Assembly: GCF_029502005.1 (NCBI RefSeq)
Contig: NZ_JAMQOT010000001.1
Coordinates: 310,001-374,000, forward strand
Direction of reading: 5' to 3'
Source: Natrinema salsiterrestre
GTDB taxonomy: Archaea > Halobacteriota > Halobacteria > Halobacteriales > Natrialbaceae
DNA: 64,000 bases
Shown here: in pieces, positions 2,408 to 56,408 of the stretch
Position numbering within the stretch: the first letter of the stretch is position 1
How the letters are laid out: every line of letters begins with the position of its first letter
Made by a program: the position numbers and the translations under genes
Notes under the pieces: generated by a model
Database searches by the model: none
What the model saw: the letters and a program-made list of their open reading frames with translations, nothing else
Told to the model about the DNA's origin: nothing

Positions 2408-5400
2408 TCAGCACTCGCTCCAGCCACAAGATTCGCACGTCTTGCAGCCTTCCGAGAAGTACAGGCTCATCGAGCCGCAGTCGGGACACTCCGGCGACTC
2501 GCCGGCGTCGATGAGATCCTGTGTCGTGTCGTCGTCGACGTCCGCGGACGCACCGCCCTGTGCGGCGGCCGCGCCGCCGTCGGTCTTGGGACCGTCGTAG
2601 TCGGCGAGTTCCGCATCGGCAGACTCCTCGAGCGTCTGCTGTTTCGGGTACGGCTTGTCGATCTCGTCGTCGAGGTAGCGTCGCATCGCGGTGCCGATGG
2701 CGTCCGGGATGGACTGGATCTGTTCGCCCTTGTCCCAGGCGACTTTGGGACTGCGAGTCCCACAGAGTTCGTCGACGATCTCCTCGGGATCGACGCCCGA
2801 GCGCAGCGAGGTCGAGATGACCTTCGCCAGCGCCTCGGTGAAGGAGTTCGTGAAGCCGCCGGAGTGGCCGATGTTCGCGAACAGCTCGAAGGGCTGGCCG
2901 GTCTCGGGATCCTCGTTGATGGTCACGTAGATCTTCCCGTAGCCGGTGTCGATGCGCTGGCTGACGCCCTGCAGGGCGGCAGGTCGCTCGCGCTTCTCGG
3001 TGAAGTCCACCTGCACGGGCTGTCCGTCACTGCCCAGCACCGCGTCGACGTCCTCCTCGAGGACGTCTCGGACTTCGTCGCTTTCGAGGAACTGCGCGAG
3101 GCCGCCGAAGATCTCGTCGATCTGCTCGACGAGCGTCTCGGCCGCCTCGGTCTCGTCGGCGAAGTCGGCGTTCTTCGCGCGGGTCGTCAGCACCTGCTTG
3201 CTTCGGGTGCCGTCGCGGTAGTAGGTGACGCCCTTGCCGCCGTGCTCGTAGATGTACTCGAAGACGTCCTTGGCGTCCTCGAGCGTGGAGTCGTTGGGCG
3301 CGTTGACCGTCTTCGAAATCGCGGAGTCGACGCCCTCCTGACAGGCGACCTGCACGCCGGCGTGTTCCTTCGCCGAGAGCGCGCCGGTCGTGACGAACAG
3401 CTCGCCGATGGCGTCGGGCACGGTCGAGAGGCCCTCGACGCCGTTGAACTGGTTGGTCGCCATCTGCTCTTGGGCCTCCTCCTTGACCGCGTCGACGTCG
3501 ATGCCGTTGGCCTCGAGCGTGCGCAGGAAGTAGTCGTCGAACTCGACGAGCATCTCGTCGCCCTGGACGTCGTCGGAGACGTTCTTGTAGTAGGCGACGT
3601 TGTAGATCGGTTCGCAGCCGCCGGTCGTGTTGCCGACCATCGAGGTCGTGCCGGTCGGTGCGATGGTCGTCACGTTGTGGTTGCGGATGGGGAAGCCGTC
3701 TTCCCAGTCGTCGGCGTTCAGACCGGTCTGTTTCTCGAACCACTCCCGGTACTCGGTCGGGTTCGCGTACTTGGACTTGTCCCACTCGTCGAAGCTCCCG
3801 CGTTCCTCGGCGAGTTCGTGGGACGTCCACTTCGCGTTGTGGTTGATGTGGGTCATCAGCTGGCGCGCGACCTCGTTGGAGGCCTCGCTACCGTACTCCA
3901 TGCCCAGCTGGATGTCCAGCTGCGCCAGCCCCATGATGCCCAGTCCGATCTTGCGCATCTCCCGGACCTTCTCCTCGATCTTGTCGACCGGGAAGTCCGA
4001 CATCGTGACGACGTTCTCGAGGAACCGCGTCCCCATCTCGATGCGGCGGTCGAACTCCTCGAAGTCGATCGCCTCCTCGAGGAAGGCCGAGACGGCCGCT
4101 TCCTGGGAGTCGTACTCGTCGGCGTGCTCGTCGCTCCAGACGCGCCAGTCGGGAGCGTCCAGATCCGCGAGCGTCGAGAGGTTGATGTGTCCGAGGTTAC
4201 AGGCCTCGTACTCCTCGAGGGGCTGTTCCCCACAGGGATTGGTCGCGAGGATGCGGTGGTCGGGGTGTTCCTCGACGTCGAAGGAGTGTTGCTTGTTGAC
4301 GCGCTCGAGGTAGATGACGCCGGGTTCGCCGTTCTCGTGGGCGCCTTCGACGATGTCGTCCCAGAGTTCTTCTGCGGGGATCGACAGCTCCTCGCCGACG
4401 TCGACGTACTCGCCGAGGCCGAACATGTCGTACAGTTCCTTGGTCTCCTCGGTGGCGATGTGGGGCTCTTCCGTGCGCGGGTTCGTGAACGTGAATTCCT
4501 CGCCGTTCTCGAGGGCCTCCATGAAGTCGTCGGTGATGCCCACGGAGATGTTGAAGTTAGAGAGGTGGCCCTCGACGGCGTTTCGGAGGTGTTCGGGGAC
4601 CCGACCTTCGTCGTCGATGAGTTCGCGGGACTCCTCGAGGGCCTCCTGGAAGGAGTTGTGCGTGAAGTCGTCGGGGTCGTTCAGGCGCAGCGTCTCGGCG
4701 AGCGAGACGTCCTTGTTTTTGGCGTGAAGGAACTGGATGACGTCGGGGTGGGAGACGCGCATGACGCCCATCTGCGCGCCGCGGCGAGCGCCGCCCTGGG
4801 CGATCGTCTCGCACATCTGGTCGTACGTGCGCATGAACGTGATCGGTCCCGACGCGATGCCGCCGGTCGAGCCGACCGCGTCGCCGTAGGGGCGCAGGCG
4901 CCAGAAGGCATAGCCCATGCCGCCACCGCTCTGGAAGACCTGCGCGGCCTCCTTGGCGGTCTGGTGGATGTCGTCGATGTCGTCCTCGGGGGAGTCGACG
5001 AAACACGCCGAGAGCTGCTGGAGCTCGTCGCCGGCGTTCATCAGGGTCGGCGAGTTCGGCATGAAGTCCAGGTTCTCCATCATGCCCTGGAACTCGTCGG
5101 CGACGTCCTCGACGTGGTCGCGGATCTCGTCGGGGAGTTCGGGGACGACAGTGTCGTAGGCGAACTTGTTGACGTTGTAGATAGACAGCGTGGCCTCGGC
5201 GTCGTCTTCCGCGGTAGTACCTGCGCCGAACACCTCTTCGGCGAGCTCGTCCCGCCGCGGGTGGTCGGGCTTGAGCTGGTCGGGCGTGACCGTGACCTCG
5301 GCGTCCCGTTTGCGGGACTCGAAGACGGCTTCCGCGAGCGCGATGTTCTTGCCGACGCGATCGAAGAGGTCCTCTTGCTCCTCGATCAGCTCGCCGTCGG

Positions 5401-10433: not shown

Positions 10434-10508
10434 GGGTTGGTGGTCTAGTCTGGTTACGACACCTCCTTGACATGGAGGAGGCCGGCAGTTCAAATCTGCT
10501 CCAACCCA
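10434..10508 (+). tRNA. tRNA-Val (GAC)
   Basis: 75 nt. The acceptor GGGTTGG (10434-10440) pairs with CCAACCC (10501-10507), with discriminator A at 10508. The anticodon stem CCTCC/GGAGG closes loop TTGACAT, anticodon GAC at 10469-10471 (reads GUC and GUU). The T-arm contains GTTCAAATC. No intron and no encoded CCA. Confidence 0.95.
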
Positions 10509-10708
10509 TTTCTGACGAACTAACACGACGAACGCAGTCGTTCGAAACGGCGGAGCCGTTTCGTGATGACGAAAGACACAAAGTGTCTTTCGAACCATGA
10601 GGAGTGCGTTCGTCAGAAATTGTAACGAGAGATTTGAACGAGGCGAGTCGCAGCGCCCGAACGTAGTGAGGGCGACCGTCTCGACGTTGTTCAAATCTGC
10701 TCCAACCC
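10509..10708 (+). repeat. tRNA-Val 3' cassette ending in a 20-bp tRNA copy
   Basis: Part 1 is a perfect 13-bp inverted repeat, 10508-10520 with 10608-10620 (ATTTCTGACGAAC/GTTCGTCAGAAAT). It encloses nested hairpins, including CGAAAGACAC/GTGTCTTTCG and CGAAACGGC/GCCGTTTCG. Part 2 is a hairpin with arms GATTTGAAC (10631-10639) and GTTCAAATC (10689-10697). The right arm runs into GTTCAAATCTGCTCCAACCC (10689-10708), identical over 20 nt to tRNA-Val 10488-10507. Part 2 shares most of its sequence with the first cassette behind tRNA-Gly. The rest of the gap up to the next gene (10709-10887) holds nothing clear. Confidence 0.8.
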
Positions 10709-10887
10709 GCTACTTCTGTCGCGATCTAACCCCGAGTGACAGAATCGGTACTGCCGCGCAATTCCAGTGACACGAGCCACAGCGCTCGGCCGAAATACCC
10801 GCGATCGCTTCGACGACATCGAAGTTCTTCTCCCTCGTGCCGGCCGCCAGCAGCGATCCAGCAACCGGCGGGATCGCAGGTGAGCCG

Positions 10888-54719: not shown

Positions 54720-55625
54720 TCACTCTCTCAGTGAGAGGGGAGCGAGGGTCGCGAACAGAGCCTCCTCCGTCCGAACGACCTCGCTTCCCTGATCCGGAAC
54801 CGTATTCAGCCAGAGGTCGAACCCCGGATCGGCAGTGGGTTCGACGTCGTCATCGGCCGCGTCGTCCCGGTTGGACGACGGTTCGACTGCGTCGTCCCCG
54901 CTGGACGACGCGTCGACGGCCGATGCCTCGATTCCGAGGATAGCCGGCAGCCCTCTCTCGGGCGCGCCGAAGGCGACGGTCATCCCGTCGCGCTGGACGC
55001 GTCCGGCCAGCGTCTCGAGCCGCCCGACGGTGAGTTCCTCACCGAATCGGGAGGCCGCGATGCGAACGCCGGCGTCCTCACGGCCGAGTGCTGCCCGCAG
55101 GTCCGTCTGCTCGATCGAAAGCCCCGGAAGGGGAACGTCTTCGAGCTTCGCCCGGACCGGTCGTCGCGAAGAGATCCTGACGGTCACGCGCTCCCCCTCC
55201 TCGACCGCCATGTTCGGCGGTACGTTGAGGGAGATCGGGTGTTGCAGTCCGCAATTGACCCGGACGCGCCCTTCAGGTCCGACCTCGGTCACGATTCCTT
55301 GTCTTGACGACCCCGAACCGGTAGATTCGGAGCCGGTCTGTGACATGGCACGGAGCGGCGGCAGGATGCCCGCGTACTCCAGTTCGTCTCGCATCCCCCA
55401 CGCCTCGTTGCGGAGGTACGGGGGCGTTGCGGCGTACCGCAACACGGTGCTGACGAACCCACCGTCGAACTGCCCGGTTTCGCCCTCCCGATCGGGATAG
55501 ACGACCAGGCGATCGGCCCGGAAGATCGTCGCCGCGCGGGCGACGTATCCGAGTTTCCGGGTTGCCTCGCGTTTGTCTTCGGCTTCCCGACTGATCGACG
55601 ACGGCACGAGTACGCTGACAGTCAT
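54720..55625 (-). CDS. Putative SPOUT RNA methyltransferase (DUF171/COG2106)
   Basis: 301 residues. VSVLVPSSISREAEDKREAT and ARAATIFRADRLVVYPD are the family start; YLRNEAWGMRDELEYAGILP is conserved in the C9orf114/SPOUT1 relatives, which methylate uridine in RNA. An OB-like insertion (about 105-160, IVTEVGPEGRVRVNCGLQHP) sits in the middle. An acidic Ser-rich loop (235-262) is haloarchaeal. It leads the ribosomal super-operon, as in other haloarchaea, just ahead of rpl3. Confidence 0.85.
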   Translation of the reverse strand: MTVSVLVPSSISREAEDKREATRKLGYVARAATIFRADRLVVYPDREGETGQFDGGFVSTVLRYAATPPYLRNEAWGMRDELEYAGILPPLRAMSQTGSESTGSGSSRQGIVTEVGPEGRVRVNCGLQHPISLNVPPNMAVEEGERVTVRISSRRPVRAKLEDVPLPGLSIEQTDLRAALGREDAGVRIAASRFGEELTVGRLETLAGRVQRDGMTVAFGAPERGLPAILGIEASAVDASSSGDDAVEPSSNRDDAADDDVEPTADPGFDLWLNTVPDQGSEVVRTEEALFATLAPLSLRE

Positions 55626-55928: not shown

Positions 55929-55999
55929 GCGCTGGTAGTGTAGTGGTATCACGTGACCTTGCCATGGTCACAACCTGGGTTCAAATCCCAGCCAGCGCA
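55929..55999 (+). tRNA. tRNA-Gly (GCC)
   Basis: 71 nt. The acceptor GCGCTGG (55929-55935) pairs with CCAGCGC (55992-55998), discriminator A at 55999. The anticodon stem TGACC/GGTCA closes loop TTGCCAT, anticodon GCC at 55961-55963. The T-arm reads GGGTTCAAATCCC. No intron or CCA. Confidence 0.95.
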
Positions 56000-56158
56000 C
56001 TTCTACGGCGAACAATTCCGGCGAGCACCGCGTAGCGTGTGCTCGCCATCCGTGAGCCGTAACGTCGTCCTGGATTTGAACGAGAGAAGTCGCAGCCTCG
56101 AGCGAACGAAGTGAGCGAGCAGGACCGTCTCCGCGTTGTTCAAATTCCAGCCAGCGCA
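56000..56158 (+). repeat. tRNA-Gly 3' cassette, first copy
   Basis: Part 1: TACGGC/GCCGTA (56004-56009 with 56056-56061) encloses a perfect 9-bp hairpin GGCGAGCAC/GTGCTCGCC (56020-56028 with 56039-56047). Part 2: a hairpin with left arm CTGGATTTGAAC (56070-56081) and right arm GTTCAAATTCCAG. It ends in a copy of the tRNA 3' end (56138-56158) that differs from 55979-55999 at one of 21 bases. The interior shares GATTTGAACGAG, GTCGCAG, CGAACG, AGTGAG, GACCGTCTC and CGTTGTTCAAAT in the same order with the tRNA-Val cassette. Confidence 0.85.
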
Positions 56159-56296
56159 TTTCTCCGAACACAATATCACGAGCGTTGCGCGGCAACGCGA
56201 GTATTCGTATGCAGAGAAATCGAATCTGGATTTGAATCAGGCCAGTCTCGCGCAGCGAAGCGAGCACGTCTGGCTGTAGTTCAAATCCCAGCCAGC
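56159..56296 (+). repeat. tRNA-Gly 3' cassette, second copy
   Basis: Part 1: ATTTCTC/GAGAAAT (56158-56164 with 56214-56220) encloses GCGTTGC-GCG-GCAACGC. Part 2: left arm CTGGATTTGAA (56226-56236), right arm TTCAAATCCCAG, ending in GTTCAAATCCCAGCCAGC (56279-56296), 18 of 18 identical to the tRNA. The interiors of the two Gly cassettes differ although the architecture is the same. 56297-56408 shows nothing further. Confidence 0.8.
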
Positions 56297-56408
56297 ACGT
56301 TTTCGAGACCTGACAGCGGGGGTGTAGGGCGACGCTACGAATCACGGATCAGCGAACAATCGAGCCGTGATCAGAGAATCGCGCCTCGAGAGCCGCCGAG
56401 CGACCGAG

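Follow-up and report, generated by a model that had tools for sequence, protein, structure and literature searches.

A widespread family of gene-free cassettes at the 3' ends of haloarchaeal tRNA genes

Integrative elements that target tRNA genes through tyrosine integrases acting at the T-loop or 3' end, among them the haloviral, SNJ2-type elements, insert at the 3' end, keep the tRNA whole and leave a copy of its tail downstream. In E. coli, the 178-bp tyrT repeats (rtT RNA) form tandem units behind a tRNA, each with the tRNA 3' end, but are not known to occur beyond a single locus, to have a complementary left arm or to form a family extending over multiple tRNA types. Integron cassettes have attC sites whose outer R boxes read RYYYAAC ... 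GTTRRRY. The attC hairpin is characterized by one or more extrahelical bases and a variable terminal structure (PMC2727003). Haloarchaea themselves harbour PATEs and MITEs, short, gene-free, palindromic repeats for which trans-acting enzymes are presumed (PMC3119063).

Here we describe cassettes without genes that follow tRNA 3' ends and form a real and widespread family, apparently undescribed: a literature search, with most subscription papers outside its reach, found no description of such units. The starting point was two loci in the window (the whole 64-kb stretch of DNA analysed), tRNA-Val(GAC) and tRNA-Gly(GCC), where a sequence-only reading had noticed a shared core followed by a copy of each tRNA's own end. 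That observation is confirmed, and the interpretation placed on it is partly supported. The features of the two loci are as follows.

10434-10508 (+): tRNA-Val(GAC), the host gene (ARAGORN and Rfam), with T54-N73 at 10489-10508
10509-10626 (+): Val unit module A, a hairpin with the 13-bp inverted repeat 10508-10520 / 10608-10620 as its closing stem; stem covariation is family-wide
10537-10601 (+): palindromic insertion within Val module A, outside the core unit; missing from the orthologous module in the sister species G072, found in other A modules
10627-10638 (+): Val unit left arm, the reverse complement of the tRNA T-loop and 3' T-stem strand
10639-10689 (+): Val unit variable core hairpin, CGAGGCGAG...CGTTG
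10690-10709 (+): tRNA-Val 3' tail copy, 19/20 (20/20 if counted from G53 to C72)
10710-10748 (+): second A-type hairpin after the Val tail copy, TTCTGTCGCGATCTAACCCCGAGTGACAGAA, of a type that serves as A in relatives
55929-55999 (+): tRNA-Gly(GCC), the host gene (ARAGORN and Rfam), with its tail at 55980-55999
56000-56068 (+): Gly unit 1 module A
56069-56138 (+): Gly unit 1 left arm (56069-56080) and core hairpin (56081-56138)
56139-56158 (+): tRNA-Gly tail copy 1, 19/20
56159-56224 (+): Gly unit 2 module A
56225-56279 (+): Gly unit 2 left arm (56225-56236) and core hairpin (56237-56279)
56280-56299 (+): tRNA-Gly tail copy 2, more distal and more decayed, 18/20

The Val tail is duplicated downstream as had been reported, G53-C72 recurring at 10689-10708 without a mismatch; comparison of T54-N73 with its copy yields 19/20, the discriminator being the one mismatch. 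The perfect inverted repeat of 13 bp is likewise real and exact, and a fold prediction over 10509-10712 gave -90.5 kcal/mol (z = -7.0). Of the 'three nested hairpins' proposed here, hairpin A stands, while the other part is the separate palindromic insertion inside A. A palindromic repeat of this insertion type (GTCGTTCGAAACGGC..GCCGTTTCGTGATGACGAAAGAC..GTCTTTCGAACCA) lies in the loop of some A modules, and the repeat of 10537-10601 also occurs in L296 (match 3148-3169, - strand) and L359 (match 400-421). Reading the TGATGA at about 10563 as part of a box C/D sRNA was considered and rejected, the D box being absent in the right order. The hairpin at 10710-10748 is probably the remnant of an older, core-less unit.

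At the Gly locus, the cassette first listed as one unit is present but is one of two in tandem. The Val and Gly units do have a common core (alignment score 33.5, compared with 10.0 for the best of 2000 shuffles), and within the 64 kb neither tail recurs at up to four mismatches beyond the copies themselves. Elsewhere in the window, Rfam assigned 55177-55276 (- strand) to the Archaeoglobi L4 ribosomal-protein leader at 74.6 bits, well over the cut-off, here in a haloarchaeon.

The anatomy of the family was drawn from 331 units. A single unit measures about 95-200 bp and consists, in order, of hairpin A, left arm, CAG, variable hairpin, CGTGG and a tail copy of 20 nt, the last being the end of the host tRNA from T54 to N73. 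Module A is mostly 33-77 nt long (full range 21-291 nt) and carries no cargo; its loop contains GAAC...GTGA in 103 of 302 modules, where 2 would be expected, and its stem covaries, with 72% Watson-Crick pairs as opposed to 16-35% when the strands are slid by 1-3 nt. The left arm is a 12-nt reverse complement of the host T-loop and 3' T-stem strand and tracks the host T-stem at 3.46/5 (permuted mean 2.59, maximum 2.76), a figure somewhat inflated because the arm was located partly by matching the tail. The core hairpin occurs in several classes and is followed by C(G)TGG and then the next tail. Most of 297 units have one unpaired G in CAG / C-G-TG and a variable stem, and the outer boxes of the unit read ATT(T/C)GAA and GTTC(A/G)AAT.

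The tail copy and left arm vary with the host tRNA, whereas the hairpin body does not; even behind the deviant tRNAs His (TTCGATT...) and Val-TAC (TTCGAACC...) the copies reproduce their own odd tails. The earlier suggestion that a common element sits behind different tRNAs, with each tRNA's own end copied from the T-loop onwards, holds, but the T-loop is uninterrupted: the host tRNA is left intact and the insert begins after position 73. No cargo cassettes were found, the longer insertions being ordinary integrated elements. Larger elements of this kind separate a tRNA from its units or tail in L349, L235, L265 and L022, and the far end of the one in L349 bears a whole divergent tRNA-like copy.

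Using the search pattern RATTTGAA-N20..50-GTTCAAAT, we found seven places in the genome from which the window derives, all behind tRNAs (Val-GAC, Gly, Val-CAC, Ser, Met twice and Leu). The pattern is present in 122 of 125 Natrialbaceae genomes (reversed-pattern control: 0), and in a sample of the phylum its strict form occurs in 47 of 81 haloarchaea and in none of 312 non-haloarchaeal genomes. Comparison of the core with its own genome and with other haloarchaea reveals a repeat family with members across the haloarchaea. ARAGORN placed a tRNA close by at 27 of the first 30 loci, taken from 30 genomes; by our reading, an intron-bearing tRNA lies just upstream at two of the other three, and the third has a displaced tail. 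A stricter pattern run on named genomes gave 110 stretches, from which 84 matches were read, and 75 of these follow an intact tRNA gene of the same strand at a distance of 32-353 bp, with 21 tRNA types represented. Most of the nine exceptions are truncated where a contig ends or pushed away from the tRNA by an inserted element, yet keep the matching tail; one of the nine is a copy in inverted orientation following tRNA-Ser. Behind tRNA-Ser(CGA) in L298 (about 1498-1700) the core of one unit appears to be inverted, the direction of the last tail copy being unchanged.

This linkage to tRNAs rules out a generic intergenic hairpin scattered at random positions, the outcome named beforehand as fatal to the sequence-only reading. 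Units have now been seen behind at least 30 host tRNA types. Copies of a tRNA's own tail follow 240 of 334 tRNAs, compared with 6 in 3340 trials using foreign tails, at loci mostly chosen for their units; in two genomes in which all tRNAs were read, tail copies accompany 17 of 47 and 14 of 44 tRNA calls.

Are the units gained and lost? The comparison with strains lacking the core, suggested at the outset, yielded clean empty sites in sister species. In the closely related sisters G000 and G069, which agree at 97% over the Val locus, G000 contains a 105-bp unit at tRNA-Pro(TGG) and a 110-bp unit at tRNA-Glu(CTC) where G069 is empty, with clean alignments at both. Across 29 congeners the Pro locus shows numerous empty sites and several distinct units; one unit, of 114 bp in G062, is matched in G075 by the identical downstream sequence standing right behind the tRNA. 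The Pro units of the congeners G000 and G078 are 95.3% identical between flanks that agree at only 62% upstream and 56% downstream, while G000 and G077 share module A (98%) and differ in the core. Clean empty sites, together with a 95%-identical unit between dissimilar flanks, indicate that units are mobile and are precisely gained, lost and transferred. As judged from these alignments, the G000, G078 and G077 comparisons represent interspecies transfer and modular exchange, although a unit could also reach a tRNA of the same type by ordinary homologous recombination across the tRNA gene, which is conserved. Bodies are also shared between tRNA types: core classes occur at 11-13 of them, and in G182 a near-identical A and an identical core are found at both tRNA-Arg(CCG) and tRNA-Lys(TTT), with tail and left arm fitting the respective tRNA. 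Identical units are repeated in tandem in L279 and L524.

The left arm offers a way of asking what travels. A core hairpin maintained for itself would be expected to have a left arm matching the downstream copy, whereas a unit travelling as tail, A, left arm and core should have one that matches the upstream tail. Position 57, which is A or G in real tRNAs, discriminates between the two, and at unselected loci with differing tails the left arm fits the upstream tail in ten cases and the downstream copy in none. A larger set fetched with mismatched patterns gave 21:1, a biased sample that we quote as consistent only. Changes confined to the copy, which affect position 57 in 4.0% and other loop positions in 0.4% (tenfold; Fisher p = 1e-5), also speak for the travelling unit. 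The test reflects decay of the copy in part: changes confined to the left arm are about as frequent at position 57, and in G070 it is the copy, not the tRNA, that deviates within the genus, so that it looks mutated rather than displaced. The final copy of an array is the most decayed (18.8/20 vs 19.7/20).

The explanation that we favour, with somewhat better than even confidence, is that these are cargo-less cassettes at tRNA 3' ends which follow an integron-like logic, probably moving as a folded single strand with the aid of a trans-acting recombinase. We infer a circular intermediate, single-strand folding, an exact cleavage point and an enzyme acting in trans, probably a tyrosine recombinase. 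The free unit, probably circular, would comprise the tRNA tail T54-N73, hairpin A, left arm, core hairpin and a G; since the left arm pairs with the tail, the tail would form part of a long imperfect hairpin, like an integron attC site. Recombination of such a unit with a tRNA, at the G53/T54 step, would leave the tRNA intact and add the unit behind it, shifting the former tail downstream, where it would appear as the 'copy'. Repeated insertion could generate tandem arrays, and deletion across the 20-bp repeats could remove units. The recombination so proposed would leave unaccounted the new-host-matched ends on a body that has moved to another tRNA. More tentatively, and with rather less than even confidence, we suggest that this may be a new archaeal recombination system, in which attC-like cassettes land on tRNA T-arms genome-wide and swap 3' ends through a resident recombinase.

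Such a system, if true, would be a class-wide mobile element that rewrites essential tRNA 3' ends harmlessly, and it would account for a large part of what is classed as 'intergenic' sequence downstream of haloarchaeal tRNAs. For annotation there is a risk that a tail copy is taken for a partial tRNA or for an att site whose virus has been lost.

All four genomes examined for an enzyme encode tyrosine recombinases (4-12 PF00589 matches each) and share one Xer-like protein, at 62-96% identity. By sequence this protein is a candidate recombinase, and only a candidate; it scores 28 bits against the integron integrase model, for which the cut-off is 265. No intI-like gene was noted beside the arrays. 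A tRNA lies near a recombinase gene at L588, L589 and L602, L589 being the element at tRNA-Leu(TAG) in G069, and a recombinase adjoining arrays as a rule was rejected, there being no systematic link. The tRNA-Leu(TAG) of G069 reads TTCAAAT (L589 and L377, with a recombinase gene adjacent) where that of its sister G000 reads TTCGAAT (L346); the G069 tail may have been exchanged by the inserted element. As for a carrier, none of 2.9 million viral contigs contains the strict pattern, relaxed viral scans returned AT-rich chance matches and one provirus edge with a host tRNA-Glu, and plasmid and phage searches gave no free element. The provirus edge is a head-tail provirus contig ending at the host tRNA-Glu, with one clear and one decayed unit (L489, 13744-14010). 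A match on an 828-kb plasmid of Natronorubrum bangense (L496, 3308-3525) was rejected as a free carrier, since this replicon holds a complete tRNA-Val(CAC) together with its unit.

The covarying A stem, the conserved GAAC...GTGA, the excess of G-T over A-C pairs on the tRNA-sense strand and the constant orientation and position behind the tRNA would all suit a structured trailer RNA, whose A and core would work in the primary transcript (3' processing, termination or stability) and would spread and be exchanged by homologous recombination through conserved tRNA genes. We nevertheless regard this as unlikely, given that more than half of the tRNAs in the two fully read genomes have no detectable copy, that sister species have completely empty sites, that the core is inverted in one copy and that, among unselected cases, left arm and copy alone agree in none at position 57 and in two at the stem, with many breaks. 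The claim that the element is by nature a folded RNA is likewise not supported, given the uncompensated pairing of left arm and copy, the gain, loss and exchange of units and the CGNAG triloops, which are usual in very stable DNA hairpins. RNA hairpins favour tetraloops, and d(GCGAAGC) is an extraordinarily stable DNA mini-hairpin; when 265 cores were folded with RNA parameters, 64% of apical loops were three-base loops, mostly CGNAG, and with DNA parameters three-base loops were still the commonest, at about a third only. The tRNA-sense strand is the one marked by the bulged G and by the T-G pair, and also by the excess of G-T over A-C pairs in the module A stem (56:34 unselected, 36:8 selected), which could fit RNA as well as single-stranded DNA. 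This makes DNA the favoured reading rather than a proven one. At the gathering score Rfam found tRNA and no match for the units, and a known RNA family was rejected on that basis.

Tail copies might instead be fossil att sites of tRNA-targeting viruses or plasmids that have been reduced to their ends. Integrated elements at such places do bear tail copies (3.1 kb in L235, 3 kb in L349 and >5.8 kb in L265), and the layout of left arm and tail is attP-like, but the attR of L235 and L349 has neither left arm nor core. Defined, conserved anatomy with a whole-unit length, the tandem recurrence of identical units (L279) and the absence from viral contigs reported above make this origin very improbable. 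We would give equally little credence to a PATE-like element mobilized through single-stranded DNA by an IS200/IS605 HUH transposase, the left arm serving as target guide. Haloarchaea commonly carry PATEs with palindromes close to their termini (PMC3119063), and the unit has a hairpin towards either end and a left arm complementary to the target. However, PATEs are without target duplication (PMC3119063), while here each insertion comes with a 20-nt copy of the tRNA end, and there is no fixed short target word because the tail follows the tRNA. The genome of the window (a draft of 27 contigs) gave no Y1_Tnp match and yet holds a unit missing in its sister, which weakens an IS200/IS605-type explanation.

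Compared with described systems, the units resemble PATEs in their near-terminal palindromes, with hairpin A at the left and the core hairpin at the right, but PATEs have neither target duplication nor a described tRNA linkage (PMC3119063), and MITEs differ in having terminal inverted repeats and short duplications. With tRNA-targeting integrative elements they share 3'-end insertion, an intact tRNA and the downstream tail copy; at 95-200 bp, however, they are gene-free and tandem, with one body on dozens of tRNA types. They are not integron cassettes, because the box consensus, integrase linkage and cargo are all wanting: the unit's GTTC(A/G)AAT has C at position 4, unlike GTTRRRY, neither intI nor a cargo gene accompanies them, the arms follow the host tRNA, and a tRNA gene takes the place of attI as platform, in archaea. 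The parallels with integrons nevertheless extend to the cassettes in tandem and to the hairpin, which is imperfect, has outer arms that are conserved and a terminal stem that varies, and bulges out a G; the extrahelical base and variable terminal structure of attC have counterparts in most of the 297 units. The outer arm complements the cassette's own first bases (10:0 at position 57, decay being possible), and the final bases of the site come from the next cassette or from the platform. If true, this would be a second, independently evolved instance of integron-like cassette logic.
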